DNA from: Clostridiales bacterium
GTDB taxonomy: Bacteria; Bacillota; Clostridia; Lachnospirales; Lachnospiraceae
DNA: 64,000 nt
Assembly (NCBI GenBank): GCA_021202925.1
Contig: JAJQCD010000014.1
Span: 62,001-126,000, forward strand
Direction of reading: 5' to 3'
Numbering within the stretch: position 1 is the stretch's first letter; every line of letters begins with the position of its first letter. The notes below the pieces were generated by a model that worked only from the letters and a program-made list of their open reading frames with translations, was not told the DNA's origin and did not search any database. Below, piece after piece: positions 14,766-30,973 of the stretch. The position numbers and the translations under genes were made by a program.

Positions 14766-15821
14766 TCATTTGCAATCCAGTATAAAAATATCCGCGCTTG
14801 TCCCAAGCTGCAGATAGGTGCCCGGCATGATATCGACCGTCTGTCCCTTTGGAAGTCGTCCCGCCTGCATATTGTAGGTCCCGAAGCTGGACAGATCCGT
14901 CACACGGAATTTCTGCCCGTCGAACTCCACCGTCAGATGCAGCCTGGAAACCTCCGGCGACTGAATGACCACGTTGCATTTCGACGCATCGCGTCCAATC
15001 CGGATGACCGCGCCGCGATCGACCGGAATATTCGCCCCGGTGAATTCTCCTTCCACACCGATCAGATATCCCTTCTTTTCATTCTGTGAAAGAACCGGAG
15101 ATGCACCCTTTGTCTCCCGTACCGTTGCTCGTTCCGGTATCGCAGGAGCGCTGTCCGCAGACACCGCCGCCCTGGGGGCCGATTCATATCCGGCAGCCGC
15201 TCCCTGCGGGGCGTCATACACTTCATGCCGCGCCGGAACGCGCCCTTCGAGCCGCTGCTCCTTGAGGGTCAGATAGAGTTCCGCGCTCGTCGCATGGATA
15301 TAAGGCAGCACCAGAAGCAGGCCGACACCGCACACAACTGCGCCGAGAAGAATCCATCCCAGGAAAGACAATCCCAGCACAAAAAGCGCCATCTTGTTGC
15401 CGTCCATCATTTCCTTGCTCATGCGGAAAATCTCTTTTCTGCTCTTCTCCGGATAGTCAACAGCCAGATACGGAACCATCGCATACTCGTAGGACTTGAT
15501 GATTCCCGGAATAAAGAACAGAAGCGACCACAGGAAGGTAAACAGGTTCCTGCAGAATATGATGCCGCAGCAACGCAGGAACTGGCCGCCGCTGAATCCA
15601 TGAAACAGTTCGCCTGCGCCCGCGTTTTCCTGTCTGCGCTCGCTGTTCAGGAAATAGCTGTACAGTCCGATTTCCAGCAAATATCCGACAAGGATATTAA
15701 GCGGCGGAACGATCGTTATCCCTGAAAGAAGGAAATAAATAATCAGTGTCAGTACCGCGCTCCAGTAATATTTTTTCAGGCTTTTCTTCGCCCTCGTTTT
15801 CAGTTCTGCCCTGGTCCACAT
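14766..15821 (-). CDS. DUF975 membrane protein fused to a C-terminal FHA domain
   Basis: Polytopic membrane protein (351 aa) whose N-terminal 205 residues look like DUF975: MWTRAELKTRAKKSLKKYYW, then several helices, with LFFIPGIIKSYEYAMVPYLAVD and FRMSKEMMDGNK as hallmarks. A flexible linker follows, then an FHA domain from about residue 255: IRIGRDASKCNVVI, SPEVSRLHLTV, DLSSFGTYN. FHA domains bind phosphothreonine, so this is probably a membrane target or anchor for the kinases encoded upstream. AAGGAG lies eight bases before the ATG. It is the last gene of the island. DUF975 alone has no known activity that I can name. Confidence 0.85.
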   Translation of the reverse strand: MWTRAELKTRAKKSLKKYYWSAVLTLIIYFLLSGITIVPPLNILVGYLLEIGLYSYFLNSERRQENAGAGELFHGFSGGQFLRCCGIIFCRNLFTFLWSLLFFIPGIIKSYEYAMVPYLAVDYPEKSRKEIFRMSKEMMDGNKMALFVLGLSFLGWILLGAVVCGVGLLLVLPYIHATSAELYLTLKEQRLEGRVPARHEVYDAPQGAAAGYESAPRAAVSADSAPAIPERATVRETKGASPVLSQNEKKGYLIGVEGEFTGANIPVDRGAVIRIGRDASKCNVVIQSPEVSRLHLTVEFDGQKFRVTDLSSFGTYNMQAGRLPKGQTVDIMPGTYLQLGTSADIFILDCK

Positions 15822-15903: not shown

Positions 15904-16755
15904 TCAGTCGTCGTAATCGTAATCATCTTCGTCATAATCATCCCAGTAATCGTCGCTGTCATAATATCCGCGTTCCACATCATAGATATACTCTTTGATC
16001 TGCTCTTCGGTTGCGTTCAACGCGGAAAGCTGCCGGGTCACCTTATCCTCCCAGTTGGCCCGCTTGGTCGCGCGTCTGGTCGAGGAGGTTGCGGTCAGGA
16101 CATTCTCCTTATATTGCTCATACAGATCTTCCATTTTCTCTTCGATCCGATCCTGATTGTCCTGCTGGACTTCCTCCTGCAGCTGCGACATTGCGTCACC
16201 GCCCAGATAAGGTCTCCAGGACTCATCGGTCGCGGACGTCGCCGCATTCTTGAAATCGATCGACCCATCGTTGTTGAAACGCAGCATCAGACCATCCTTC
16301 TCAATGATCTCGCCGGTTCGCAGACTGCCGTCCGCCTGTGCCTGGTACATGCTTCCGCCAACGGTGAAATTTGTGCTGTACTTCATCGCCCCGGTACTTT
16401 CATCCAGGTAATAACGTTTGCCGCCCAGATCCAAGAATCCGGTCTTCATGGCGCCGCTGGCATCCAGATAATAATACTCATCATTCACCAGCACCCAGCC
16501 GGTCTGCATCACACCGGACGCATCGGAATAATACCAGACTCCGTCCTTCTGATACCAGCTGGAAGCCGCCATATGTCCGGTCCCATCAAAGAAATACCAG
16601 GCTCCGTCGATCTGCATAAACTGATCGCTGGCGCGGCTGCCGCTATCATTCAGATAGTAATAACCAGCTTCATCCTGCTCCCAGCCCGCATAGACCGGAA
16701 AAACTGCCGCCAGTGTCATAACCGCTGCTGCGACTCCAATACTCCACTTCTTCAT
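15904..16755 (-). CDS. Secreted choline-binding-like cell-wall repeat protein with acidic tail
   Basis: Exported protein, 283 aa. A Sec signal peptide (MKKWSIGVAAAVMTLAAVFPVYAG) is followed by about six choline-binding-type repeats of the GxWYYxDxxGxMxTGW kind (GAWYFFDGTGHM, GVWYYSDASGVMQTGW, EYYYLDASGAMKTGF), which normally bind teichoic-acid choline or other wall polymers. Residues from about 175 form a helical, charged region (MSQLQEEVQQDNQDRIEEKMEDLYEQY). The last 20 residues are almost only Asp and Tyr. Placed between the PASTA kinase and the DUF975-FHA gene, it may be a wall-located partner of the kinases. No enzymatic domain is visible. Confidence 0.82.
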   Translation of the reverse strand: MKKWSIGVAAAVMTLAAVFPVYAGWEQDEAGYYYLNDSGSRASDQFMQIDGAWYFFDGTGHMAASSWYQKDGVWYYSDASGVMQTGWVLVNDEYYYLDASGAMKTGFLDLGGKRYYLDESTGAMKYSTNFTVGGSMYQAQADGSLRTGEIIEKDGLMLRFNNDGSIDFKNAATSATDESWRPYLGGDAMSQLQEEVQQDNQDRIEEKMEDLYEQYKENVLTATSSTRRATKRANWEDKVTRQLSALNATEEQIKEYIYDVERGYYDSDDYWDDYDEDDYDYDD

Positions 16756-16988: not shown

Positions 16989-19016
16989 CTATGTCTGTGC
17001 CTGAGTTGTCTCTAAAGCCGCCGTCGTCTGTTTCGCCGGATCCTTGCCCTTACTGATGACCAGGTCCACCGAATCGCCCTTTTTCACTTCCGCTCCGTTT
17101 TCCACACTCTGGGAAATAACCTTTCCGGAAGCAATCGAGTCACTATACTCCTCCGTCACTCCGCCTACAGTAAGACCAAGGGCTTCGATTGTTTCTGTTG
17201 CCTCCTCAAGTGACATCAGTTGTACATTCTCCATATAAATCTTTTCCTGGCCAATGCTGACCGTGACCGTCACATAGGTATCGCGATTCACCATCTCTCC
17301 TGCGGCCGGAGACTGCGCCAGAATCGTGCCTTCCGGTTCGTCGCTGTTTTCTTCTACCCAGTTAACCTTCAGGCCAACCGCCTCCAGGGCAGGTTCCACG
17401 TCCCCGCGGTTCAGTGCCATCAGTTCCGGAACCTCTACCTGCACGCTCTCGTCGCCTTGCTGACTCTCCTCGTTCATGCAGATCGTCAGAACAATCTCCG
17501 CGCTCAAGGCCACATTATCGTTCTGTTCTTCACTGACACTCAGAACCGAATCGTAGAGTCCTGGTTCGTCGCTTTCCTTAATCACAACATTCCGAAAACC
17601 GGCTTCTTCCAGCTTCTCCATCGCTTCCTCACGCATCAGCCCGACAATGGACGGGAAAACCGCTTTCTCCTGTCCCTTACTGATATACACCATGACCTCG
17701 GTTCCCTGCGCGATCACGCTGTTGGCCGGCACTTCCTGATACGAAATCAGATTCTCCGGGATTTCCTCGGAATATTCCATCCGGTCTCTCGACATGCCCA
17801 GACGCTCATCTGCCAGAATGGTCTCCGCCTCATCTGCGTCCTCGTTGACCACATTCGGCATACGAACCATATCCGCTTCCATCTGTGCCGTAGACGAACT
17901 CATATGCAGCCGGATCACGCCGGTCATCAGAAGGACAATCACTGCGGCTACCGCCAGAATCACGGCGCCACTCAAAGCGAACACCCACTTCGGAATCCTG
18001 CCCACATCGTTTTTATCCTTCGTGATCGTGCGTTCCTTTACTTCTGCCGCGGACAGTTCTGTCAGGAACTCGCCCATGGTCTGCGTCCGATCCTGCGTCT
18101 TGATATGGAGCGCATTCATCAGCGCGGTTTCTGTCGGCTTGCTCAGTTTGACGCCCAGCCGGGACGGCTTCTTCAGTTCATCCTTGACGCTGCGCTCCAT
18201 CGCATCCTCCGGCGTCACCTCCGTAAGCATTTTATAGAGCGTAGCCGCCAACGCGTACACGTCTGTCCAGGTCCCCTGATCGCCCCGGCTGCGATACTGC
18301 TCCTCCGGGGCATAACCCGGTTTGATGATTACAGACAGACTCTTGCTGTGCTTTGTGGTCGCGTAACGGGCCGCGCCAAAATCCAGGAGCTTGACCCGCA
18401 GGTTGTCAGGCTCATCCGGGTTCAACACATAGATATTGTCCGGCGCAATGTCCCGGTGAAGGATTCCCTCCTTATGTACGCTCTCCATGGCGGAAGCGAT
18501 CTGCTTCGTGACATGAATCGCCTGCTCCGGCGTCATCTTTCCCTTCTCCTTCAGGTAATCCTTCAATGTCATACCTTCCAGAAATTCCATAACAATATAG
18601 GAAGTATTGTTTGCCTCAAAGCAATCGTAAATCTGGACGATCCCCGGTACGGATTCAAAACGGGCCAGCCGCCTGGCTTCCTCAATCGTCTTCACCAAGC
18701 CCTCCCGGTACTGCTCCTCCCGTTCTCCGGAATAGACCGTCACCGGCAGCTGCGTCGGCATCCGCGTGGCAAACTCTCCCGGCAGGTATTCCTTGATCGC
18801 AACCTTACGTTGCATCAGGTAATCCCACCCAACATATGTGATTCCAAATCCGCCAAAGCCCAGTACCTTTCCGACGATATACTTCTCTTTGAGTACCGTA
18901 CCGGGCGGAATGTGGTACGACTGCTCCGCCGGTGTATCAAAGGCATACCCGCAATAAGGACAGACTTCAAAGCGATCGTCGTATTCCTTCATGCAGCCCA
19001 TGCATAATCTGTTCAT
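16989..19016 (-). CDS. Zinc-ribbon Ser/Thr kinase with PASTA ectodomain (PknB/PrkC-like)
   Basis: Transmembrane Hanks-type kinase, 675 aa. Order: zinc ribbon (CMGC...CPYCGY) at residues 5-24; kinase domain from about 42 with GFGGFGITY, KVAIKEY, HRDIAPDN, LLDFGAAR and GYAPEEQY, all catalytic motifs intact; one transmembrane helix (PKWVFALSGAVILAVAAVIV) around 343; four PASTA-like repeats outside, each with the XSXGXE-type ends (VYISKGQEKAV, VTVSIGQEK, LVISKGKDP). PASTA modules in PrkC sense muropeptides or lipid II. The zinc ribbon at the N-terminus is not part of classical PrkC. Translation stops at an amber codon after TTQAQT while a Thr/Ala/Pro tail continues in frame. GGGAG precedes the ATG. 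Confidence 0.88.
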   Translation of the reverse strand: MNRLCMGCMKEYDDRFEVCPYCGYAFDTPAEQSYHIPPGTVLKEKYIVGKVLGFGGFGITYVGWDYLMQRKVAIKEYLPGEFATRMPTQLPVTVYSGEREEQYREGLVKTIEEARRLARFESVPGIVQIYDCFEANNTSYIVMEFLEGMTLKDYLKEKGKMTPEQAIHVTKQIASAMESVHKEGILHRDIAPDNIYVLNPDEPDNLRVKLLDFGAARYATTKHSKSLSVIIKPGYAPEEQYRSRGDQGTWTDVYALAATLYKMLTEVTPEDAMERSVKDELKKPSRLGVKLSKPTETALMNALHIKTQDRTQTMGEFLTELSAAEVKERTITKDKNDVGRIPKWVFALSGAVILAVAAVIVLLMTGVIRLHMSSSTAQMEADMVRMPNVVNEDADEAETILADERLGMSRDRMEYSEEIPENLISYQEVPANSVIAQGTEVMVYISKGQEKAVFPSIVGLMREEAMEKLEEAGFRNVVIKESDEPGLYDSVLSVSEEQNDNVALSAEIVLTICMNEESQQGDESVQVEVPELMALNRGDVEPALEAVGLKVNWVEENSDEPEGTILAQSPAAGEMVNRDTYVTVTVSIGQEKIYMENVQLMSLEEATETIEALGLTVGGVTEEYSDSIASGKVISQSVENGAEVKKGDSVDLVISKGKDPAKQTTAALETTQAQT

Positions 19017-19037: not shown

Positions 19038-19776
19038 TTATGACTGGCCGTTCTCTTTCTTCTCCAGGTCTTCCCAGGCAAATTCCTTCGTACAGCAGGG
19101 AATGATCATCAGATCTACCTTGCCAAGTGAAATGATGTCGTTGGCTTTCAGCACAACATGATCCAGAACCACATCGTCATTGACATAAAACAGCTCTCTG
19201 GCATCTCCCGCCTGCGCAAGGAACATCCTCTCCTTTGGCTCATAAACAATCACCGCATGACGGTCTCTGGAAACCGAACGCTCCCCTTCCAGACAGATAT
19301 CCATATCGCGGCCGCGGCCAATAAAATTCCGCCCGCTTTTCAGCGTAAAGCTCTGGCCAAAATACTCGCCTTTCGTGCAGACCAGCCATCCCACCACCGG
19401 CTCTGCCTTCACCGGCGTGGCAATCGCTTCCTCATAATAACGACGCGTCGGTACATCGTCATCCGGCAAAGACTGCACCGGAGCGGCCGCGGACGGTTGT
19501 GGACGAACCGGTTCCATCGGAAGTACCTCGACTGGTTCCTGTCTCTTCTGAGTCACATCGGAATCGGTCGCAATATGCTGCACTGTAACCGCATCATCTT
19601 CAGCAACCCCACCTCCGCTGTAAAGAATCCATTGTTACATTCTCCGATCCATTTACCGGCCGCATGGCTACGGTCGTGGAATCATCAGACGCCCCGGCCG
19701 CCGCACCGCAATGTGGGCAGGACGCGTAACGATCTCCGTCATAGAAATGACCTTTTTCACACCTTTTCAAATTCAT
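19038..19776 (-). pseudogene. Zinc-ribbon FHA protein, frameshifted
   Basis: A paralogue of the FHA gene at 30271-30882. The true start is the ATG at 19776 (GGAGGG six bases ahead) giving MNLKRCEKGHFYDGDRYASCPHCG, but this frame stops at 19600. The rest (ORF 19038-19583, with NFIGRGRDMDICLEG, RSVSRDRHAVI and the ending IIPCCTKEFAWEDL) is in another frame. Removing one T from the minus-strand TCTTTAC at about 19622-19624 restores DSYSGGGVAEDD, which matches DSYNSSAGMGG in the paralogue. So either a single-base insertion or a sequence error. When whole it would be a soluble protein of about 245 aa carrying a zinc ribbon and a phosphothreonine-binding domain. Confidence 0.82.
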
Positions 19777-19879: not shown

Positions 19880-22123
19880 CTATGACATTGGGCTGTCTAC
19901 GGATTCCGGACTTTCTACGGCTGCCGATGTCTCTGTAATCTCCGACGCCTCAATCGTGAACGGTAACACCGTTGCCTCTGATACGGCGGTCGTCTCCGGC
20001 ACTATCGTCGTTTCCGGTTCCGCCATTGTCTCTGGCGCCACCGTCGTTTCCGGCGCCACCGTCGTTTCCGGCGCTGCGGTTGTCTCTGGCGCTGCCGTTG
20101 TCTCCGGCGCTGCCGTTGTCTCCGGCGCTGCCGTTGTCTCTGGCGCTGCCGTTGTAACCGGCGCCGCGGTTGTGGCGGTTGTGGTCGATTTCTTCACAGA
20201 AGACGTCTGCTTCGCCGGATTCTTTCCTTTGCTGACCGTCAGATCCACAGAATCGCCGCGCAAAGCCGCCTCATCCTGTGCAATACTCTGCGTAATCACC
20301 TTTCCGGATGCAACCGAGTCGCTGTATGTTTCCGTCACGGTTCCGACTGCAAGTCCCAGCGTCTCGATCTCCTCTGTCGCCTCCTCCAGCGACATCAGCA
20401 ACACGTTTTTCATATAGATTTTTTCCGGGCCGATACTGACTGTCACGGTCACGTAGGTATCCCGGTTCACAATCTCGTCCGCCTTCGGTTCCTGCGCCAG
20501 TACACGTCCCTCTGGCTCATCACTGTACTCTTCCACCGGATTCAGCTTCAGGCCTTTCTTTTCCAATGCGGCTCCCGCTTCTGCCCGATCCATGCCGATC
20601 AGGTCAGGAGCCTTCACCTGCTGGCTGTCATCGCCATCCAGACTTGCCTCATTCATACAGACCGTAACCATAATCTCTGTGCCCAACGCCACGTTGGCGC
20701 CCTCCATCTGACTGATCTCCAGAATGTGATTGTAAACGCCTTCGTCCATGGATTCCTTCATCTGAATATTCTCAAAACCGGCCTCCGCAAGCCGCTCCAG
20801 TCCTTCCTCACGCGCCAGTCCCCGCACCCGGGGAATCACACCTTTTTCCGAACCTTTGCTGATATGGACGACAATCTCCGTCCCCGCATCGAGCAGAGTC
20901 CCTACGGGCTTTTCCTGATAAGAAATCACATTTTCCCCAACTTCATCCGAATATTCCATCCGCTCTCTCGACATTTCCAGGCCAAGATCCTTCAATGCTT
21001 CTTCTGCTTCATCCGCATCCCGGTTCACGACATTGATCATGCGGACAGTTCCCTTTTGCAGTCCGGTCTCACCGGTCTCTTTCAGAGAAACACGCAGGAA
21101 ACCAACTCCTATCACAATCATCAGCACCAGCAATACTCCTGCAATCGCCGCCGCCGCGATAACCGCTCCTTTCGGAATCCCTAACGGTTTCCGCAGATCC
21201 CGCCTTCTGTTGCGGTTCCTGGAAAAAGACTCCTCTGCTTCTCGCGTCACCCGGCCATTTAATTCCTCCTGAAACCGACGCATGGACTTGGTCTCATGAG
21301 AAAGTGCATGCTTCATGGCCGTCATCACATTCCTGGAAAGTCCCGTCTGGCTCAACAGTAGTTCCTGCTCCAGCCTGTCACCTTCGAGAATCTCCCGCCC
21401 GCTCACCAGGCAGCAGAACAGCTTTGCCAGGCCATATACATCTGTTTCCGGTCCCGGATTATCATAATTTACAATTCCCGGTTCCCCGCAGACATAGCGC
21501 CACGAACCAAAATCCTTCAGAATCAGCCGTCCGTCTCCCGTATACCAGAATGCCTCCGGATCAAGCATTCCATGGCTGACTCCAAGTTCATGGCATTTTT
21601 CCACGGCCTCCCAGGCCTTCCTCAGCAAAGTCAGCGCCTCGCTTTCACTCAGGCGTCCGTCGGCTAATCTGTCCCCCAGCGTCTGCAGTTCCCGTGCCTC
21701 CGTAATTGCATAGGCCGTCCGGTTCTCCTCAAAGCAGGCGCAATAGGTTATCACATCCGGCTCCCGGTACGCGCGAATCAGTTCCCGGCTCTCATGGATA
21801 AACGCCTGCAGCCCTTCCTGAAATCGTTCCTGCCTTGATTCATAAATGGTCATCTGCGGATTCCCGCCACGCGAGGCACAATATCTGGGGAAATATTCCT
21901 GAATCCGTACCTGACGGTCAAAGATGGCATCCCAGCCCCGGTAACAGATATCCACATCACGCACCCGGATCACGGTTCCCACAATATAGCGGCTGTGCAG
22001 GATCGTTCCCGGCATCAGCCCCATATCTGCCTCCCGTGTCACACCGTGAACGTATCCGCAATAAGGACATTTGTCTTCATATTCCTCGGCGTATTCCTTC
22101 ATACAGTTCAGACAACGCCTCAT
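19880..22123 (-). CDS. PASTA-type transmembrane pseudokinase
   Basis: 747 aa, built like the kinase at 16989-19016: zinc ribbon (CLNCMKEY...CPYCGY), kinase-like domain, transmembrane helix (AVIAAAAIAGVLLVLMIVIGVG, around 335) and four PASTA-like repeats, then a long PETTAA-repeat tail. The catalytic motifs are lost: the glycine loop reads VIRVRDVDICY, the VAIK lysine is Gln (RQVRIQEYF), HRD is replaced by SHGMLDPEA without the catalytic Asp or Asn, and the APE region is gone; only KDFG survives. It is therefore predicted inactive and probably allosteric or scaffolding for the active PASTA kinase. The start at 22123 overlaps the previous stop as ATGA; the ORF track's 12 extra codons are not needed. 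Confidence 0.86.
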   Translation of the reverse strand: MRRCLNCMKEYAEEYEDKCPYCGYVHGVTREADMGLMPGTILHSRYIVGTVIRVRDVDICYRGWDAIFDRQVRIQEYFPRYCASRGGNPQMTIYESRQERFQEGLQAFIHESRELIRAYREPDVITYCACFEENRTAYAITEARELQTLGDRLADGRLSESEALTLLRKAWEAVEKCHELGVSHGMLDPEAFWYTGDGRLILKDFGSWRYVCGEPGIVNYDNPGPETDVYGLAKLFCCLVSGREILEGDRLEQELLLSQTGLSRNVMTAMKHALSHETKSMRRFQEELNGRVTREAEESFSRNRNRRRDLRKPLGIPKGAVIAAAAIAGVLLVLMIVIGVGFLRVSLKETGETGLQKGTVRMINVVNRDADEAEEALKDLGLEMSRERMEYSDEVGENVISYQEKPVGTLLDAGTEIVVHISKGSEKGVIPRVRGLAREEGLERLAEAGFENIQMKESMDEGVYNHILEISQMEGANVALGTEIMVTVCMNEASLDGDDSQQVKAPDLIGMDRAEAGAALEKKGLKLNPVEEYSDEPEGRVLAQEPKADEIVNRDTYVTVTVSIGPEKIYMKNVLLMSLEEATEEIETLGLAVGTVTETYSDSVASGKVITQSIAQDEAALRGDSVDLTVSKGKNPAKQTSSVKKSTTTATTAAPVTTAAPETTAAPETTAAPETTAAPETTAAPETTVAPETTVAPETMAEPETTIVPETTAVSEATVLPFTIEASEITETSAAVESPESVDSPMS
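20020..20172 (-). repeat. 18-bp tandem repeats encoding ETTAAP units
   Basis: About eight imperfect copies of an 18-bp unit (ggcgctgccgttgtctcc and variants), each coding for six residues of the pseudokinase tail. Similar repeats occur at about 16860-16975 in the severed kinase tail. The tail is likely a disordered extracellular or wall-spanning spacer; copy number may vary by slippage. Confidence 0.75.
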
Positions 22124-24243
22124 ACGTCCTGATCCTCTCCATACTCCATCGTCAGCCAATCCAGAAGACCGGCCAGTTCCTCAAACTCATTGTTGCTCTC
22201 GACATAAGTTTTCATCATATTTTTGTTGAGGGGCAACCCATTCCCGCCCTGAAGGTTATACACATCCTGCGCGGTCTCTCCCAGGAGATAATATACCAGA
22301 CTATCCGCCGCTTCCTTGGCATCCCCCTCCAGGCTGCCGTCAATACTCCAGAGAGAGGTGAACTGTCCCCGAATCTTCCCGTCCTTCCAGAGACTCTCCA
22401 TCACTTCCATCCGGTAAATGCCGCCCAGGCTGGCCCGGATAACCTCATAGTCATCCGTCGTTCCCAGATAATACGCTGTCCGGCGTTCCAGGAACGGTTC
22501 GTAACCCTTTTCTCCGGTCTCCGGCTCCTCAAACGCTTCCTGCCCGGCAGCGTCCGCAAACGCCGTACGATACATCTCGCGCACTTCACTGCTCACACAA
22601 TAGCTGACGTTTCCTTCTGAATCAATCAGCTGGCTTATGTTCGTTACCTCGTCTGCCCGGAAATCCTCCGGGATCTGGTTCGTATTGACATAGAGCACCG
22701 GTGCGCGGAACGAAATCGGAATCTGTTTCTTCTCCTCCCCGAAATATGCCTGGAATCCCTTATCCTTCATAAAGTAATAATTCTTCTCATCCAACGTATC
22801 ATATGTGGTATCCAGCGTCCCCAGCCTTGCCCAAAGCTCTGCATCAGCCGCCGTGATCGATGTGGTTTCAAAGACGGCCGGCAGCGTACTTGCCTCCATC
22901 AGCTGTCCGGCATATTCCTCTGACGAATCTCCGGAGATCAGTTCCAGCGTGACGCTGGAAAATCTTTCCTGATATTCTTCTGCCATCTTCCCGAGCATTT
23001 CCTCCGATGTGATCCGTTCCACATGTTTCGTTTCACCCGTTTCCGTTCCTATCGCGGACGCTGCCTCAATCTCAGAAAGTTTCTCTGCATTGATGTCCGG
23101 CATCTCAACACGAATCGCCGCTGCAATCCGATAGAGCGCCTGCTGTTTCCCCCGATACACCCAGAGACATCCTGCTCCCGCCGCGAGCACCACCAGACAG
23201 ATTCCTGCGATACCGATTCCACGCCGGAACTTTCTGCGTTTCAGTTCCGCATCGACCGTAAGTATTTTCGTCTGATTCTGAATGGCCTCCTTGAACTGAT
23301 CCACATTGCGGAAACGCAGCTCCTGGTTCAGGGCCATTGCCCTCATGATACTGGTATTCAGATACTCCGGTAGGTCCGGCACAAAAGTCACAGGCGGTGG
23401 GAGCTTATCATCCACAACCCGGTTCACGGACTCCTCCGGCATCCTTCCGGTGATCGACCGGTAAAGCACTGCACCGACCGCATAAATATCTGTCCACGGT
23501 CCCTGACGGCTCCGGCTCCGATACTGCTCCGGCGGCGCATAACCTGGCTTCAGGATAATCGAGAGCGTCTTTTCTTCCTCTCCGCTCGAAAAACGCGCCG
23601 CGCCGAAGTCAATCAGCTTCACCCGGTATCGATCGGATCCCGGTTCCTCCGGCACCAGAAAAATATTATCCGGACTCACATCACGGTGAATGATGCCCAC
23701 CTTGTGAATCTCTTTCAACGCATCCAGCACAGACATGACGACATGAACCGCCTCGTCTACCTCCACCTTTCCGCCATGCTGCTTAATATATTCCTTATAG
23801 GACATGCCGTCCAGAAACTCCATAGCAATGTATGCCGTATTGTTCTCCTCGAAGAACTCATACACATTTACGATATTCGGATGCGTGTTAAAGCGCGCCA
23901 TATTCCTCGCTTCCGCCAGGAACCGTTCTTTGCCGCCGCGAAACTCCTCTGCCCGGTTTCCGGAATAGACGATCACTTCCTTCTCTCCCGGCACACGATT
24001 GACGATTCCATTGGGATAATATTCCTTGACTGCTACCTTCTTCTCCAGAACCGTATCCCATGCACGGTAGGTAATGCCAAATCCACCGAATCCGACCGTC
24101 GTACCGACCAGATAGCGATCCTTCAGCTTCACCCCCGGATACAGATGATACGCTTCCTTAGGCGGACTCCCCGGTATAAAACCACACCAGGGACAGACCC
24201 CATAGGCTTCGTCAAACGTTTTCATGCAGTTTAAGCAAATCAT
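22120..24243 (-). CDS. Zinc-ribbon Ser/Thr kinase with extracellular solute-binding-like domain
   Basis: 707 aa. Zinc ribbon (CLNC...CPWCGF, residues 3-21); kinase domain from about 38 with GFGGFGITY, KVAVKEYYP, HRDVSPDN, LIDFGAAR and GYAPPEQY, so active; transmembrane helix (GIAGICLVVLAAGAGCLWVY) near 345; then about 335 residues outside that read like an ABC-type solute-binding fold: LPAVFETTSIT, APVLYVNTNQIPEDF, ERRTAYYLGTTDDYEVI and, near the end, NLQGGNGLPLNKNMM. A kinase carrying such a sensor would couple binding of a sugar-like or other solute to phosphorylation. It overlaps the preceding phosphatase by 32 bases and the pseudokinase by 4. The ectodomain call is by eye and needs profile confirmation. 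Confidence 0.82.
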   Translation of the reverse strand: MICLNCMKTFDEAYGVCPWCGFIPGSPPKEAYHLYPGVKLKDRYLVGTTVGFGGFGITYRAWDTVLEKKVAVKEYYPNGIVNRVPGEKEVIVYSGNRAEEFRGGKERFLAEARNMARFNTHPNIVNVYEFFEENNTAYIAMEFLDGMSYKEYIKQHGGKVEVDEAVHVVMSVLDALKEIHKVGIIHRDVSPDNIFLVPEEPGSDRYRVKLIDFGAARFSSGEEEKTLSIILKPGYAPPEQYRSRSRQGPWTDIYAVGAVLYRSITGRMPEESVNRVVDDKLPPPVTFVPDLPEYLNTSIMRAMALNQELRFRNVDQFKEAIQNQTKILTVDAELKRRKFRRGIGIAGICLVVLAAGAGCLWVYRGKQQALYRIAAAIRVEMPDINAEKLSEIEAASAIGTETGETKHVERITSEEMLGKMAEEYQERFSSVTLELISGDSSEEYAGQLMEASTLPAVFETTSITAADAELWARLGTLDTTYDTLDEKNYYFMKDKGFQAYFGEEKKQIPISFRAPVLYVNTNQIPEDFRADEVTNISQLIDSEGNVSYCVSSEVREMYRTAFADAAGQEAFEEPETGEKGYEPFLERRTAYYLGTTDDYEVIRASLGGIYRMEVMESLWKDGKIRGQFTSLWSIDGSLEGDAKEAADSLVYYLLGETAQDVYNLQGGNGLPLNKNMMKTYVESNNEFEELAGLLDWLTMEYGEDQDV

Positions 24244-25051
24244 CCCTGCCGTCCTCCTGTTTTCCCAAATATCGGATCAGAACCGCCGTCGTATTGTCCT
24301 GTCCTCTCACTCTGCGGTCCATAGCCATATCCGTCAGCCGATCCGCTGCGATTGCCATATCAATGTCATTATCCGTTGCCATCGCCCAGACCTGGCTCTC
24401 ATTCAGGCTTTTGTAAATTCCATCGCTGCAGAGTACCACAATATCGCCCGGCTCCAGCTTCAGAGGAGTCCGGTTGGAATCGATATACTGAACATGATTC
24501 ATGCCGAGAAAACTGATCAGCGCGTCCGCCTGCGGCGTCGCCGATTCCCGGTCAAATTCCTCCCTGCTGATCACGCCGGCATCCAGCCTTTGCTTTAACA
24601 GCAGACGATAATTGTGTTCCACATTCAGTGAACGAATCCGGTCGCCACGAATCAGATAAATCATGCTGTCTCCCACCGACACCCAGTACATCTGATCGCC
24701 CTGAAAGCTCGCGGCCACCAGTGTCGTCCCGGCCCCCAGCGCTTTTCCCCTTTCATTGCGCAACGCTGTCACCGCCTGATCCATCCTGCCAACTTCCCCG
24801 GTCAGGAAATCCGACATCGGAAGATTTCCCGACCTGCGGCGAAAATCCTGAATCATCTGCTGAATGGCCGTCTGGCTGGCCCGTTCTCCACCTTCGAGAC
24901 CGCCCATGCCATCACAGACGACCGCCAGAATCTGATCGGAGTCAATGCAATAATAAGCAGCGTCCTGCTGATATTTTCTGGTTCCCAGGATGCTGCTTGC
25001 CCCTACATCATAAGTGGGATTCCAGCCACGCTTTTCCTCAACGATATTCAT
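24212..25051 (-). CDS. PP2C-family Ser/Thr phosphatase
   Basis: Metal-dependent phosphatase of the PP2C/Stp family, 279 aa, likely to reverse the action of the neighbouring kinases. Motifs: RKYQQDAAYY (metal Asp), VCDGMGGLEGGE, VSVGDSMIYLIRG, CSDGIYKSL and GQDNTTAVLI with the last metal-binding Asp. No membrane segment. Its start overlaps the end of the kinase-FHA gene by 14 bases and its end overlaps the next kinase by 32, so the three are translationally coupled: a kinase-phosphatase-kinase cassette. Confidence 0.92.
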   Translation of the reverse strand: MNIVEEKRGWNPTYDVGASSILGTRKYQQDAAYYCIDSDQILAVVCDGMGGLEGGERASQTAIQQMIQDFRRRSGNLPMSDFLTGEVGRMDQAVTALRNERGKALGAGTTLVAASFQGDQMYWVSVGDSMIYLIRGDRIRSLNVEHNYRLLLKQRLDAGVISREEFDRESATPQADALISFLGMNHVQYIDSNRTPLKLEPGDIVVLCSDGIYKSLNESQVWAMATDNDIDMAIAADRLTDMAMDRRVRGQDNTTAVLIRYLGKQEDGRDDLLKLHENV

Positions 25052-26543
25052 ATCTCACTCCCAATTCAATGACGCATGACGCACTGGCCAGGGCAAACCT
25101 GGCCGGCGGGCTGACAAAGCAATCCATTCCCCGTTTCAGGCGTTGCCCATTGTAATACACACCGTTTACCGACAGGTCACGGATGCAGAAACGCCGCGTC
25201 TGCTCCACCCAGGTAATCAGGCAATGAACCCGGCTGATATCATTCGGTCTCTCCACACAGATATTTGCCTCTGTCTTCGACCGCCCCAGCTTCAGCGTCT
25301 CGTTTCGGGGGATATTCCAGTTTTTCCCCTTTTCCGGTCCCAGGACGACGGACACATAAGGAAGCGCCACCTTCTGCGGCTGCCTGGCTGGCGCCTGCGG
25401 CCTCGCCGGGGTAACCTTCGCCGGGGTAATCCTCGTCGGAGTAACCGGCCTGACCGGAATTCCCAGTCTCTGCGGCGGCGCAGACCGATTCTGCACCGCT
25501 GGACGCACCTGCGCTGCCGGTCTCGCCTGTGCTGTTGGTCTCACCTGTGCTGCCGGTCTCGCAACCGGCATTTCCATTCCTGCAGCGATTTCCGCGATAA
25601 ACCGTTGCATGGTTTTTGTCCGCTGATTGGCCTTGAGCGCCAGCGCCCGATCCACTGCATCCGAAATCCCCGCCGACACCCCGACATTCATTTCCTTCAG
25701 AGAGACATAGTCCTGTCCCGCCAGGCGATCCGGAGCCGTCGGAATATATTTTCCGGTCAGCGCGTAATAGTAAGTTCCTGCCAGCGAATATACATCCGTG
25801 AAACTTCCCTGCACCATTTCCGTCGAATACTGCTCCGGCGGTGCGAAGCATGGCTTCAAAACGACAGACAATCCCGACTGCATGCCGGTCTGCGTCTGTT
25901 TTGCACTGCCAAAATCAATCAGTTTCACCTGATCCTGCCTCGTGATAAAAATATTTTCCGGTGTGATATCCCGGTGAATAATCTTCGTTTTTGTATGAAT
26001 CACATCCATCGAGACGGCAACCTGAAGAACAATATCTGTAGCTTTCTGCACCGGAAGCCGCCCCTTCGTCGCACGGACAATCTGCTGGAGATTCGCTCCG
26101 TCCAGATATTCCATGACAAAATACGCCGTATTGTTCTCCTGAAACACATCGGTGATATCCACAACCGACGGAATATTCTCCAGACGGCTTAAGATACGGG
26201 TTTCATCAAAGAACCGCTTCAGTCCGGCCCGGTAAGGCAGCTCCACCTGTTCCGACAAAACCTCCAGCATCCGTCCGTGCTCGCTGCGCCTGCAGATTTC
26301 ATTCGGCGCGTATTCCTTCACACAGCAAATCGCCTGCTTCGCATAGTCAAACGCCTTATAGGTAATTCCAAATCCGCCCTCTCCCAGCGTTCTCCCCAGG
26401 TAATACCTTTGCTGCAGGACCGTACCCGGAGGAAGTGCCCTCTGATAGACCTTCCCCTCAAATCGTGTCTGATATCCACACTTCGCACAGCATCCGTTCA
26501 CGAACCCTGGTGCAAAACAATTCGGGCAAAAATCTGTCTGCAT
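25038..26543 (-). CDS. Soluble zinc-ribbon Ser/Thr kinase with C-terminal FHA domain
   Basis: 501 aa, no transmembrane helix. Zinc ribbon (CPNC...CAKCGY) at the N-terminus; kinase domain from about 45 with GEGGFGITY, CCVKEYAP, HRDITPEN, LIDFGSAK and CFAPPEQY; then a Pro/Ala/Arg-rich linker (RPAAQVRPTAQARPA...) of some 85 residues; then FHA with LKLGRSKTEANICV, DISRVHCLI and DLSVNGVYYNG. The FHA could recognise autophosphorylated linker threonines or bind partners. ATG at 26543 with AGGTGG eight bases ahead is preferred to the GTG at 26555. The preceding VWA-FHA gene ends only five bases upstream. Confidence 0.9.
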   Translation of the reverse strand: MQTDFCPNCFAPGFVNGCCAKCGYQTRFEGKVYQRALPPGTVLQQRYYLGRTLGEGGFGITYKAFDYAKQAICCVKEYAPNEICRRSEHGRMLEVLSEQVELPYRAGLKRFFDETRILSRLENIPSVVDITDVFQENNTAYFVMEYLDGANLQQIVRATKGRLPVQKATDIVLQVAVSMDVIHTKTKIIHRDITPENIFITRQDQVKLIDFGSAKQTQTGMQSGLSVVLKPCFAPPEQYSTEMVQGSFTDVYSLAGTYYYALTGKYIPTAPDRLAGQDYVSLKEMNVGVSAGISDAVDRALALKANQRTKTMQRFIAEIAAGMEMPVARPAAQVRPTAQARPAAQVRPAVQNRSAPPQRLGIPVRPVTPTRITPAKVTPARPQAPARQPQKVALPYVSVVLGPEKGKNWNIPRNETLKLGRSKTEANICVERPNDISRVHCLITWVEQTRRFCIRDLSVNGVYYNGQRLKRGMDCFVSPPARFALASASCVIELGVRYEYR

Positions 26544-26548
26544 TCCGC

Positions 26549-28270
26549 TCACCACCTGACTGTGATTTTCAAGGTACCGGCCTCGATCCGGTCTCCCGGC
26601 ATCAGCGGATGCCGGCTGTGAATCTCCTTCCCATTCACCTGCGTTCCGTTCAGAGAATTCAGATCAGAAATAGATACATGCTCCTTTTCCCGTTCCAGAC
26701 AGAAATGTCGCCGGGAAAGCTCCCTGTCATTCAGACAGATGTCGCAGGAAGGCGAACGCCCTACCAGCAGCCTGCGGTCAAATTCCCAGACCGCTTCCGA
26801 TTCCCCGCCTTCTGCAGAAAGAATCCGGACATCCATCTGGATCCGGTCGTCCTGCGTCTGTCCGGACGCCGTTTCCTCCTGCGCCTTTTTCTTTCTCGAA
26901 GTGACAGCTACCACGATCGCCACGACAATCAGCGCTGCAAAAATCAGAAACAGTATGCCGCTTATATCCTGCGGCATCCCCGGAATCAGCCGCTCGGGCT
27001 CTGGTTCCGGCTCCGGCCTTGTCTCCGCGCTGTCGATCTCAATTGTCAAGCTGCTTTCCGCAAGTGGATTTTTCTCCATCGAGACGTCCGTCAGATTGGT
27101 CAATGTCAGCTCATAGGTTCCGTTCCAGACTGGTTTGTCTACTGTCAGCTTTACCGCAGCGGCCAGATCTTCATCCACGGCCACCGAAACCACACCCAGG
27201 TCCGCCAGTCCATCCTCTCCGCTGTAACGAACCTGATAATTCGCCGCTGCATCCATTCCATACAACGGTTCACTGAACACGAGACGGATCGCCTGTCCTC
27301 CGGCATATTGCCACTCCACCAGAGACGGCGCCTCTTCATCCGGGATCCAGTGATCGTTTACTGCATCCTTCCGGAGCACCACTCCGTCCGCAAGTTTCAG
27401 ACTGAATGTTTCCGTCTGATAACTCACCAGATTCGTCGCCGCCCGATACCGTGCGCAGACATCGGAATCCAGCAATTCACAGAGTCCCGTCAGCAGATTA
27501 TCCTCTCCCGTCTTCTCAAACACAGTCAAGGTTCCACCCGAAGACCTTGCGAATGTTCCAAGACCGTCCAGGTACTCCTTCTTCGTATCCGCCGGACCGA
27601 ATGCGTAAACCGGAATGGAACGATCCTGAAGCCGTGTCAGGGCCTCGTCAGCCTGTGTCTTTCCCACGGTAAAATCTTCTCCATCCGTCAGCACGACAAA
27701 AACCGTCCGGCTCCGTTCGGTCTCTCTCTCCGCATCCGCGGCCGCCAGGTATATGGCCTCAAACAGCAGCGTCTCCTGATTGTCATTATCAAGCGCATCC
27801 AGCACCGCAGCCATTTCCTCCGGCGTCTGTTCTCCGTCTGTCACTCGCGTCACTTCATCGCCAAAGGCATACAAAACCAGACGGTCTTCATTCCCCAAAG
27901 TATCCTGCAGGGCCTGAATCGACGCTTTCATCCGGGCAAAACTACTGTCTGAGATCGAAGCAGAAATATCGACCAGCACATAATACCCAATGCCATTACC
28001 GGTCTCCCCAAACACCTGCGGGGTCTCCTGCAGCACCAGCTTCTCCTGACCCAGCCAGGCCTCACCTCCCTGCATTTCCTCCGGAGTAACCCCGCTGCCA
28101 TACACGACGACCTCCGGCATATTCAGATACACCTGCCCGATCCTTCGTTCTCCGGCCGCCGTAGCGGATTCCGTTCCCGTCTCTGTCGCCCGGGCCGTCC
28201 CCGCAGTCAGTAAAACCAGCAGCAGCACAAACGCAGCCAGTCCGTTCCGGTATCTCCCGCTCTTTCTCAT
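26549..28270 (-). CDS. Membrane-anchored VWA protein with cytoplasmic FHA domain
   Basis: 573 aa. Signal peptide or N-terminal anchor (NGLAAFVLLLVLLTAGTARA); VWA domain from about residue 95 with the MIDAS pattern YVLVDISASISDS (D-S-S replaced by D-I-S-A-S) and VFVVLTDGEDF; a beta-rich region of some 150 residues; a Pro/Glu stretch (RPEPEPEPER); a transmembrane helix (ISGILFLIFAALIVVAIVVAV) near 455; then a cytoplasmic FHA with LLVGRSPSCDICL, RELSRRHFCL and DLNSLNGTQVNG. It thus links an extracellular adhesion-type domain to phosphothreonine recognition inside. AAGGAGACAAGT precedes the chosen ATG; the ORF-track start lies in a duplicated 31-bp repeat. Confidence 0.87.
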   Translation of the reverse strand: MRKSGRYRNGLAAFVLLLVLLTAGTARATETGTESATAAGERRIGQVYLNMPEVVVYGSGVTPEEMQGGEAWLGQEKLVLQETPQVFGETGNGIGYYVLVDISASISDSSFARMKASIQALQDTLGNEDRLVLYAFGDEVTRVTDGEQTPEEMAAVLDALDNDNQETLLFEAIYLAAADAERETERSRTVFVVLTDGEDFTVGKTQADEALTRLQDRSIPVYAFGPADTKKEYLDGLGTFARSSGGTLTVFEKTGEDNLLTGLCELLDSDVCARYRAATNLVSYQTETFSLKLADGVVLRKDAVNDHWIPDEEAPSLVEWQYAGGQAIRLVFSEPLYGMDAAANYQVRYSGEDGLADLGVVSVAVDEDLAAAVKLTVDKPVWNGTYELTLTNLTDVSMEKNPLAESSLTIEIDSAETRPEPEPEPERLIPGMPQDISGILFLIFAALIVVAIVVAVTSRKKKAQEETASGQTQDDRIQMDVRILSAEGGESEAVWEFDRRLLVGRSPSCDICLNDRELSRRHFCLEREKEHVSISDLNSLNGTQVNGKEIHSRHPLMPGDRIEAGTLKITVRW

Positions 28271-28286
28271 ACTTGTCTCCTTTATC

Positions 28287-28348
28287 CGCCCCTTGCCTGA
28301 CGGCAATTTCCTTCATTCGCCCCTTGCCTGACGGCAATTTCCTTCATT
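28287..28348. repeat. Tandem duplication of a 31-bp unit
   Basis: Two adjacent identical copies of cgccccttgcctgacggcaatttccttcatt (28287-28317 and 28318-28348) just upstream of the VWA-FHA start. A shorter relative, cattgcctgacgcc, occurs near 29246. Function unknown; recent duplication is likely because the copies are identical. Confidence 0.85.
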
Positions 28349-28408: not shown

Positions 28409-29137
28409 TCACGAATCCAGCCACACTGCCACAGCAGAAAAATTATCCATATTCCGGTTTCTGCCATTTTTGCGCACAATGGCGGCCATCTGTCTCACCC
28501 AGTCTTCCGGATCCTTCGCATGCTTCAGACAGTGCATCATCTTCTTCTCATCGATCAATTCCCAGAATCCGTCTGTACACAGCAGGAAAGCCTGTTTCCC
28601 GGTTCGTTCTTTCGGCGGCTCGATCTGATACCTCGGATCATCCCAGTCCGCCCCCAGTACCCGCAACAGCCGGTTGCGATCCGGATGATTGCGAATCTGC
28701 TTTTCCCGAATCTGTCCGGCGGCCACCAACATCTGGGGAACACTGTGATCTAGCGTGCGCCCCGCCAGCTTTCCATTCTCAAACCAGTACAGGCGGCTGT
28801 CTCCGATATGTCCCCAGCGAACCTGCCCTGCCTCCACATAGAGCACAACTAATGTTGTCTTCATGTCTCTGGCGGAAAGGTCTTCCCGCTGCTTCTTTAT
28901 GATTGCGTCCTGGGCACTCTGAAACGCCCTCCCCAGGCTCTCCTCGCCGCCTCCAAGTTCCGCAAAACACATAATGGCGGACTCGACCGCAAGCTGGGAC
29001 GCCAGCTCACCTTTTCCGTGTCCGCCAAGACCGTCGGCGAGAACAAAACAGTACTCCTGCTCATTCTGATACATACCGACATTATCCTCATTGTTTCCCC
29101 GATCTCCCGGATCACTGAACAAATAACAGGGAGGCAT
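28409..29137 (-). CDS. PP2C-family Ser/Thr phosphatase
   Basis: Second soluble PP2C phosphatase of the island, 242 aa. Motifs: DRGNNEDNVGMY (metal Asp), VLADGLGGHGKGE, GHIGDSRLYWFE, LCTDGFWELI and NMDNFSAVAVW. The ATG at 29137 (MPPCYLF) has GGTGG five bases ahead and is preferred to the GTG used at 29158. It precedes the VWA-FHA gene and follows the membrane FHA gene. Having two distinct PP2C genes in one cluster suggests different substrates, for example soluble FHA proteins against membrane kinases. Confidence 0.91.
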   Translation of the reverse strand: MPPCYLFSDPGDRGNNEDNVGMYQNEQEYCFVLADGLGGHGKGELASQLAVESAIMCFAELGGGEESLGRAFQSAQDAIIKKQREDLSARDMKTTLVVLYVEAGQVRWGHIGDSRLYWFENGKLAGRTLDHSVPQMLVAAGQIREKQIRNHPDRNRLLRVLGADWDDPRYQIEPPKERTGKQAFLLCTDGFWELIDEKKMMHCLKHAKDPEDWVRQMAAIVRKNGRNRNMDNFSAVAVWLDS

Positions 29138-29264
29138 CTCTTCCACCCACCTTTCCACCTTCTTCGCCGACAGCCAGCCATCCGCCCGCGGAAGGGGAAA
29201 ACGCCCCTCCCGCGCACATGGTCAACCGCCTTCGGTCAGACCCCATTGCCTGACGCCATCCGCA

Positions 29265-30155
29265 TCAGTTCAGCCGGAATCCGTTTCGTCTACTGCTTCC
29301 CAGATAAATCACCGTACCTCTGGAAAGCTGCTTCGGCTGCCCGCTCTCCAGGCGGCTTCCGCTCTCCAGATAAGTACCGTTGCTCGAATAATCCGTCACA
29401 ACATACTGATTCGAACGACCATCAAAACGAACCACGCAATGCTTGCGGCTGACATCCGTCGCAGACTGGTCAAAGACAATATTCGCTTCCTGGGTAGAAC
29501 GGCCAAAGACCAGCTCCGAGCCGTCAGCCAGGTCAAACGTCGCATCCTTGTACATACCGACCGTACCCACGATTACGCCCCGGTTCTGCACTACATTGGT
29601 ATCGCCCGGCTTCTTCTCCTGCTCGACAAATTTTCCAAAACGAATGGAATTGGAAAACGCGATCAGCATACCAAACACCTTCGCCACCGGCCAGAATGCC
29701 GGTATAATATTCATCCACGCCGTATTCGGATTGAAACCAAACAATTCATAAAACTTCTGATAATACAGGAACGTGAATACCATGTTAGCAAGAACGTAGA
29801 CGATCAAAAGCACCGTGATAATCGCCATATTCCCTGTCAGCTTATACAGAAGCGTCAGAATCAGCCCCACCGACACCCATGTAACCAGAGAATTGCCAAA
29901 GAAAAAGATGTACCAGACCGGACAGCGTGCAATCTTCATCTGATAAATCTGACGGGCGACCGGCACAAACGGCATAAAGTCTCCCTCTACCTTCGCCTTC
30001 CGTCCCGTACACATCAAAGCATACCCATGGACAAAATAAGTAGCCAGCACAAATGCGATGCCCAGTACAGCAATCAGCATACTGATTCCCTGAATCATAC
30101 CTGCAATTCCGTCAATCAATTGTTCCAACTCATAAATATCACTCAAACCTGACAT
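29265..30155 (-). CDS. Polytopic membrane protein with C-terminal FHA domain
   Basis: 296 aa. The N-terminal 180 residues contain about five hydrophobic helices (MIQGISMLIAVLGIAFVLATYFV, WYIFFFGNSLVTWVSVGLILTLL, and others) and resemble small DUF5684-like membrane proteins, though that match is uncertain. The C-terminal FHA reads LVFGRSTQEANIVF, TDVSRKHCVVRF and DYSSNGTYLESG, with the conserved Gly-Arg, Ser-Arg-His and Asn residues. Start at MSGLSDI with GGGAGG ahead; the ORF track adds 17 codons. Together with the DUF975-FHA protein it is one of two polytopic membrane FHA proteins in the island. Confidence 0.84.
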   Translation of the reverse strand: MSGLSDIYELEQLIDGIAGMIQGISMLIAVLGIAFVLATYFVHGYALMCTGRKAKVEGDFMPFVPVARQIYQMKIARCPVWYIFFFGNSLVTWVSVGLILTLLYKLTGNMAIITVLLIVYVLANMVFTFLYYQKFYELFGFNPNTAWMNIIPAFWPVAKVFGMLIAFSNSIRFGKFVEQEKKPGDTNVVQNRGVIVGTVGMYKDATFDLADGSELVFGRSTQEANIVFDQSATDVSRKHCVVRFDGRSNQYVVTDYSSNGTYLESGSRLESGQPKQLSRGTVIYLGSSRRNGFRLN

Positions 30156-30270
30156 ATTTCTGCCTCCCTCACCTGTTTGTATATAGATCCCCCTGAGCAT
30201 GGCCAAAAAACGGTCACATGCCCTGTCGCATCATCCTGAAACCGGATCCGATGCTGGTCTTTCTTCCGGA

Positions 30271-30882
30271 TCAGTCCAGTTCCCAGTTGAACGCCTCGTC
30301 ACAGCACGGGATCAGCATCAGCTGGACATCCCCAATCTGCATCACATCATTCTTCTTCATCTGAACCGGCGAAAGTACAACATTCCCATTGATATAGAAC
30401 AGTTCTCTCGACTCGCCCGGCTGCGCGATGAAAATATTCTTCCTCGGCTCATGAATAATGGTCGCGTGCCGCTCTCTGGATACACTGTTCTCTCCGGCCA
30501 GGCAGATATCCATCTGCGAGCCGCGGCCAATGAAGTTCCGTCCGCTCTTCAAACGGAAATCCTGCCCGTAAAATTTCCCTTTCGTGCAAACCAGCCAGCC
30601 GACTGTCGGAGCTGCCGACACCGCGCCGCTCTCTACCGCTTTCTTACTCTGGTAAATGCTGATCGTCTTATTGTCATCCTCATCGACCGGAGCAACGCCG
30701 CCCATGCCCGCACTGCTGTTGTACGAGTCCAGATCCAGCGTCTCCCTGTCCCCGCTTCCCGGGGCATCCTGAAACGGCACCGTTCTGCCTTCATCCGGAC
30801 TGACACCGCCTCCACAGTGCGGACAGGATGAATAAATATCACTGTCATAAAAATGTCCGTTGCTGCATTTCGTTAACTTCAT
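30271..30882 (-). CDS. Zinc-ribbon FHA protein
   Basis: Soluble 203-aa protein. N-terminal zinc ribbon KCSNGHFYDSDIYSSCPHCGG, a flexible middle containing TVPF and ETLDLDSYN, and an FHA domain from about residue 115: NFIGRGSQMDICLAG, NSVSRERHATII, LFYINGNVV. The C-terminus LMLIPCCDEAFNWELD is shared with the frameshifted paralogue at 19038-19776. The short Thr-rich segment before the FHA resembles the phospho-acceptor region of GarA-type FHA proteins, so it could be a direct kinase substrate; that is inference. AAGGAG precedes the ATG at 30882. It is probably the first gene of the main island transcript. Confidence 0.88.
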   Translation of the reverse strand: MKLTKCSNGHFYDSDIYSSCPHCGGGVSPDEGRTVPFQDAPGSGDRETLDLDSYNSSAGMGGVAPVDEDDNKTISIYQSKKAVESGAVSAAPTVGWLVCTKGKFYGQDFRLKSGRNFIGRGSQMDICLAGENSVSRERHATIIHEPRKNIFIAQPGESRELFYINGNVVLSPVQMKKNDVMQIGDVQLMLIPCCDEAFNWELD

Positions 30883-30964
30883 TTCTGATGTTCTCCTTTC
30901 CCCGTCATCCACTCCCGCCGGCCTTATCTTCCTCTGCCGTGTTTCCTGCATGACTGCTGCGGTC

Positions 30965-30973
30965 ATTATATCA
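30965..30973 (-). promoter_or_regulatory. Extended -10 promoter of the FHA/kinase operon
   Basis: On the minus strand TTTGATATAAT carries TGA followed by a perfect TATAAT (30965-30970); the -35 (GGGCAT) is poor, as is allowed with an extended -10. It lies about 80 bases before the zinc-ribbon FHA gene. Confidence 0.55.

Follow-up and report, generated by a model that had tools for sequence, protein, structure and literature searches.

A predicted pseudokinase family kept beside active zinc-ribbon kinases in a Lachnospiraceae signalling operon

On the minus strand of the window, the whole 64,000-nucleotide stretch of Clostridiales contig JAJQCD010000014.1, from a gut bacterium, analysed here, a gene at 19880-22123 encodes a kinase-like membrane protein with PASTA repeats (PSK), close to a PASTA kinase whose catalytic residues are retained (ACT). 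This raises the question of whether the degenerate protein has a role of its own, and through which of its parts. The original prediction took it for a dedicated membrane pseudokinase that could heterodimerise with ACT through shared PASTA and zinc-ribbon parts; the kinase encoded immediately upstream (K2) did not enter that comparison.

The pseudokinase and its operon

The predicted gene proved real and its coordinates correct: the reading frame runs from an ATG at 22123 to a stop at 19880, with a TTG at 22159 as an alternative possible start. As predicted, the protein has the same architecture as ACT, with a zinc ribbon, a kinase-like domain, a transmembrane helix and PASTA repeats. Its features are as follows:

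19880-22123, minus strand: PSK, zinc-ribbon, pseudokinase, transmembrane and PASTA protein of 747 aa
22052-22114, minus strand: zinc ribbon, C4, C7, C19 and C22, the cysteines invariant across the family alignment
21239-22009, minus strand: pseudokinase domain, aa 39-295, from alignment with active paralogs
21110-21166, minus strand: single transmembrane helix, about aa 320-338, from hydropathy
20039-21046, minus strand: PASTA ectodomain, about aa 360-695, from Pfam and an iterated profile
19883-20038, minus strand: C-terminal tail, Pro/Thr/Glu-rich with ETTAAP repeats, from direct reading

Pfam recognised PASTA (E 9.5e-45) in PSK, with three repeats, or four by the iterated profile. The Hanks-profile comparison proposed with the original prediction gave a Pkinase match of E 2.4e-09 for PSK and 2.4e-33 for ACT, whose PASTA match is 1.5e-46. 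The PSK match (residues 106-267) covers only profile positions 43-220, so the glycine-loop part is unmatched. Alignment with active paralogs confirmed the losses that had been predicted. R, R and D occupy the three Gly positions of the glycine loop, the beta3 Lys is replaced by Gln75 (VRIQEYFP against VAIKEYLP), HRD has become HGM (184-186) with Met186 at the Asp position, and the metal-binding Asn of the catalytic loop is Ala191, while DFG (204-206) is kept. The segment from DFG to TDVY, counted on the alignment, is 16 residues shorter than in ACT and has no APE-type motif. The alphaC Glu is present in the window protein and is Gln in most PASTA-bearing orthologs.

The Stk1/PrkC model NF033483 scored 182.8 bits with PSK and 316.5 with ACT, both below its 450 cut-off, and the match in PSK lies in the PASTA part (E 1.4e-53). 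PSK therefore shares kinase-TM-PASTA order with Stk1/PrkC/PknB-type kinases but differs from them in its missing catalytic residues, its N-terminal zinc ribbon and its low score; PASTA repeats do follow the helix, as in a functional PASTA kinase, whereas the catalytic Lys, Asp and Asn are gone. In a PDB profile search the PSK profile matched kinases, PpkA (5hnv) being the closest (E 5.3e-26). Kinase-domain homology combined with loss of the beta3 Lys and HRD Asp would place PSK among the Hanks-type pseudokinases, and judged by these residues it is a degenerate kinase-like membrane protein, predicted to be catalytically dead.

The neighbouring genes encode kinases, phosphatases and FHA proteins:

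15904-16755, minus strand: secreted protein with glucan/choline-binding-type repeats
16989-19016, minus strand: ACT, active zinc-ribbon PASTA kinase of PSK-like architecture
19038-19776, minus strand: zinc-ribbon FHA protein, frameshifted in the window
22120-24243, minus strand: K2, active zinc-ribbon FGITY kinase with a transmembrane helix and a solute-binding-related ectodomain
24212-25051, minus strand: PP2C phosphatase (Pfam)
25038-26555, minus strand: K3, kinase plus FHA domain, catalytic residues present
26549-28306, minus strand: VWA-FHA protein (Pfam)
28409-29158, minus strand: second PP2C phosphatase (Pfam)
29265-30206, minus strand: FHA-domain protein (Pfam)
30271-30966, minus strand: FHA-domain protein (Pfam)

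All catalytic residues are retained in K2, K3 and ACT. The stop codon of K2 overlaps the PSK start in the sequence ATGA (22123-22120). The K2 ectodomain matched SBP_bac_8 in 10 of 13 members (best E 1.6e-11), and its profile matched sugar-binding proteins in the PDB. It appears to be a diverged solute-binding protein (SBP_bac_8/SBP_bac_1), so that K2 would hold sensor and kinase in one chain. The frameshift of the FHA gene, either a sequencing error or a true loss, falls within 19584-19660, between zinc ribbon and FHA domain; the relative in genome G007 is intact. The secreted repeat protein has an acidic Asp/Tyr-rich tail and lies downstream of ACT in most related loci. Near the operon end, 14766-15821 (minus strand) encodes a DUF975 membrane protein that carries an FHA domain at its C terminus, and a TerB_N/TerB_C protein at 35384-36985 (plus strand) lies near a DEAD-box helicase gene (38320-40608).

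Orthologs, topologies and selection

Beyond the window, searches of the genus, the family and named genomes found PSK orthologs at 26 loci, and every one of the assemblies concerned belongs to Lachnospiraceae or to related clostridia. Most are metagenome assemblies; the carriers include the cultured Hungatella effluvii DSM 24995, an Enterocloster sp., Candidatus Lachnoclostridium, Caccovicinus and Cottocaccamicrobium. PSK comes after K2 in each locus, and where the contig is long enough an FHA gene and/or the PASTA kinase comes next. The two genes overlap by 4 bases in 14 loci and are separated by at most 28 bp in most others; in L093 and L096 an FHA-ABC transporter gene is inserted between them. 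Some soluble-type loci likewise have a two-FHA ABC transporter gene at this place (L061:9176-11524; L058:4198-6511; L064). K2 and ACT occur without PSK in G006, G008, one locus each of G017 and G022, L098 and several other genera, while PSK without the K2-ACT pair was not found among the loci examined, a pattern that fits an accessory subunit.

The orthologs differ in how they are attached to the membrane. By the rows of alignment A3, PASTA repeats with a transmembrane helix are present in only 10 of the 27 proteins, and the other 17 have no PASTA. Among the latter are tail-anchored forms with the helix at the extreme end (L082, L084, L085, L087, L100), forms with a helix and a short non-PASTA ectodomain (L089-L091), forms with no helix (L086, L092-L097, L099) and a long outlier (L101). 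Since PASTA varies while the pseudokinase domain and zinc ribbon are constant, the PASTA part is optional.

Loss of catalytic residues runs through the whole family. None of the 27 rows in the family alignment has the beta3 Lys, and nearly every member has also lost the HRD Asp, the Asn and the activation segment, a common HG motif standing in place of HRD. L091 is an exception in that it retains HGD...N, with Gln for Lys and GFG for DFG. The activation segment is shortened in most members, L085 having an insertion instead. The DFG Asp is present in most membrane forms, and soluble forms lose DFG. For comparison, of the 187 kinase domains that could be read in the fetched loci, 143 keep all four catalytic residues; some genomes are counted twice in this set.

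On a midpoint-rooted kinase-domain tree, the 28 PSK rows grouped into a single clade (100/100, 100% of bootstraps), with ACT, K2 and K3 outside it. The PSK branch is long, and long branches call for caution about monophyly; the common HG motif and the absent Lys agree with it. Between the window and G007, dN/dS (NG86) was 0.10-0.13 for the kinase-like domain of PSK, 0.028 for ACT and 0.040 for K2, values that are rough because dS exceeds 1. The orthologs thus being monophyletic, syntenic and under purifying selection, the description of the window protein as a dedicated membrane pseudokinase holds. Taken by its sequences, PSK is an old, selected family of predicted dead kinases and probably a new pseudokinase family, with C. 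difficile CD2148 compared by description only.

Conservation is unevenly distributed along the protein. Mean identity in the beta1-beta3 sheet is 62% in PSK and 68-69% in ACT/K2, and in the zinc ribbon 58% against 59-69%, whereas in the catalytic loop, the activation segment and the C-lobe it drops to 22-37% against 65-79%. Conserved N-terminal parts beside diverged catalytic parts are expected if selection keeps a docking surface and not an active site; N-lobe conservation could also reflect fold stability alone. Mirror-tree partial correlations were 0.57 for PSK-K2 and 0.28 for PSK-ACT, a weak difference because all these genes are co-inherited.

PASTA pseudokinases also occur in other Lachnospiraceae genera, at or close to the position that the active PASTA kinase occupies (L102:8942-11665; L103:9387-11939; L110:2474-4780). 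The one in G361 directly follows K2 (L102), in the PASTA kinase of G317 (L103/L101) Arg replaces Lys and the other motifs read HRA and YNF, and the PASTA protein of G270 has HYN and INF (L110). These losses lie outside the pattern of the PSK clade and are apparently independent of it, tree placement covering L101 only. Several PASTA proteins with catalytic losses in this operon type suggest that, given an active K2, the operon may do without catalysis by its PASTA subunit.

PASTA ectodomains of PSK and ACT

On a tree of the ectodomains, those of PSK and ACT were intermixed. In G007 the two ectodomains are 87% identical and the kinase domains 33%, and DNA identity rises at a sharp boundary just past the transmembrane helix, from about 40-57% to 95%. 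This pattern is best read as gene conversion between PSK and ACT. The G007 assembly is fragmented, with the PSK N-terminus on another contig; a chimeric assembly is nevertheless an unlikely cause, because a single contig carries PSK, FHA and ACT in the order of the operon and the two copies differ (87% at the amino-acid level). Ectodomains were also closer than kinase domains in the window (57 vs 32%), L076 (65 vs 33%) and L078 (55 vs 31%). Over the PASTA-bearing loci, ectodomain identity averaged 49.3% within and 41.9% between loci (permutation p 0.0001), and the same-locus excess persisted when the window and G007 were removed (p 0.0002); the corresponding kinase-domain values were 31.5% and 31.1% (p 0.08).

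Close tracking was clear in about 4 of the 10 PASTA-bearing loci (window/G007, L076, L078) and was not seen in L075, L077, L079 or L083. Ectodomain exchange as a general rule was therefore rejected, as it is seen in only part of these loci. The PASTA arm would either derive from repeated capture out of the gene next to it or have been homogenised in some lineages.

A candidate docking subunit and its alternatives

The reading that we favour, with slightly better than even confidence, is that PSK serves the K2/PASTA-kinase pair as a subunit without catalysis of its own, for docking or allosteric control, and that its PASTA arm is optional. PSK would be kept as such a subunit in a cell-envelope operon for kinase, phosphatase and FHA signalling. 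It may dock onto K2 and/or ACT through its zinc ribbon and N-lobe sheet, and the docked protein may then set the activity of these kinases or bring both together. Back-to-back dimers of bacterial Hanks kinases use the N-lobe face. Where a PASTA ectodomain is present, it would serve as an extra arm by which PSK follows the same cell-wall ligand as ACT. From gene order, K2 and not ACT is the likeliest co-translated partner; synteny and translational coupling indicate co-production, not contact. The DFG Asp retained in most membrane forms would leave room for unusual nucleotide or metal binding. The original proposal of a heterodimer through shared PASTA parts finds some support in PASTA-bearing members and fails as the family's core mechanism, since PASTA is missing from 17 of 27 members and the helix from about a third, all in the same operon position. 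The zinc-ribbon half of the proposal survives better, as conservation is concentrated in the zinc ribbon and the N-lobe sheet.

The ectodomain data raise the alternative that PSK works chiefly as a co-receptor or decoy by way of PASTA, its ectodomain pairing with that of ACT and sharing or competing for a peptidoglycan ligand. The jump in identity past the G007 helix, the same-locus excess confined to ectodomains and the lack of PSK/ACT separation on the ectodomain tree all speak for it, yet it says nothing for the PASTA-less majority, some with no helix at all, and tracking fails in four named loci; we regard it as unlikely. The soluble forms point elsewhere, to a phospho-switch adaptor whose juxtamembrane or C-terminal tail is phosphorylated by an active kinase and then bound by the operon's FHA protein. 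An invariant Thr in a [DE]E[AV]T[ILV]E motif at the C-lobe end occurs in 9 of 9 distinct short soluble members (type c loci), the gene immediately downstream encodes an FHA protein at every one of the nine loci, and MviN and FhaA set a precedent (PMC12599244). The motif was not seen, however, in PASTA-bearing members, the window protein among them; such an FHA gene is missing from the eight loci whose PSK is membrane-anchored and has no PASTA, and that of the window is frameshifted. We consider this mechanism quite improbable.

That PSK has gained another enzymatic activity in a remodelled cleft, in the manner of SelO or SidJ, draws on the DFG Asp of most membrane forms and the common HG motif at the HRD site, SelO likewise having HG.. 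and DYG/DFG (PMC12599244). With the beta3 Lys gone in all members, the cleft among the least conserved regions and DFG missing from soluble forms, we give it very little credence. Nor is PSK plausibly a decaying, functionless duplicate of a PASTA kinase, a notion we find scarcely credible: its non-synonymous rate is about four times that of the active kinases, but dN/dS is well below 1, reading frames are intact, cysteines invariant and synteny fixed, and the family is old, monophyletic and spread over many genera. On dN/dS, synteny and monophyly the pseudogene reading was rejected. A bolder version of the docking-subunit model, which we hold to be doubtful, makes PSK a two-sensor hub that bridges K2 and the PASTA kinase and would combine two outside signals in one membrane complex, its PASTA arm sometimes re-copied from the active kinase so that the ectodomains stay compatible.

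Known systems offer partial parallels. The Mycobacterium tuberculosis protein MviN (ActPs3) is, like PSK, a Hanks pseudokinase on a membrane protein with an activation-loop deletion and a link to a PASTA kinase (PknB) and FHA; its pseudokinase domain dimerises back-to-back and recruits FhaA once phosphorylated by PknB (PMC12599244). Unlike PSK, MviN is actinobacterial, has all three motifs degraded and belongs to a peptidoglycan-synthesis protein, with no zinc ribbon or PASTA described (PMC12599244); the window protein shares the activation-loop deletion and keeps DFG. C. difficile CD2148 is described as a clostridial Hanks-type protein with a TM anchor that acts together with the PASTA kinase PrkC and modulates what it does; it has no PASTA, both its HRD Asp and Asn are Ser, and the authors leave pseudokinase status possible (PMC9674922). 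By description, CD2148 differs from PSK in that no zinc ribbon is mentioned for it and 41 phosphoproteins depend on it in vivo (PMC9674922). EssB/YukC of type VIIb secretion is likewise a membrane-anchored Firmicutes protein with degraded glycine and activation loops, EssB acting as a scaffold (PMC12599244), and differs from PSK by operon. A type VII link was rejected, as YukC (PF10140) had no Pfam match in PSK or in the window genome. The PpkA-PppA-Fha system of T6SS resembles the PSK operon in that kinase, PP2C and FHA genes act together; the PpkA stretch matched by the PSK profile keeps HRD and DFG, whereas the PSK operon has PASTA and solute-binding-type sensors, and no T6SS genes were present among the annotated window genes. 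DYD kinases combine Arg for the beta3 Lys with a DYD motif, where PSK has Gln and DFG/DYG. The PSK family was not found in open-access literature on this operon type, on TerY-like modules or on PpkA with pseudokinases, and none of the seven bacterial pseudokinase families reviewed in 2025 is described there with PASTA repeats (PMC12599244).

A known role is rare among bacterial pseudokinases. PSK provides a natural series in which a predicted dead kinase at one fixed position bears a PASTA arm, has a membrane anchor only or is soluble, and this series lets the role of the pseudokinase domain be asked apart from its sensor.
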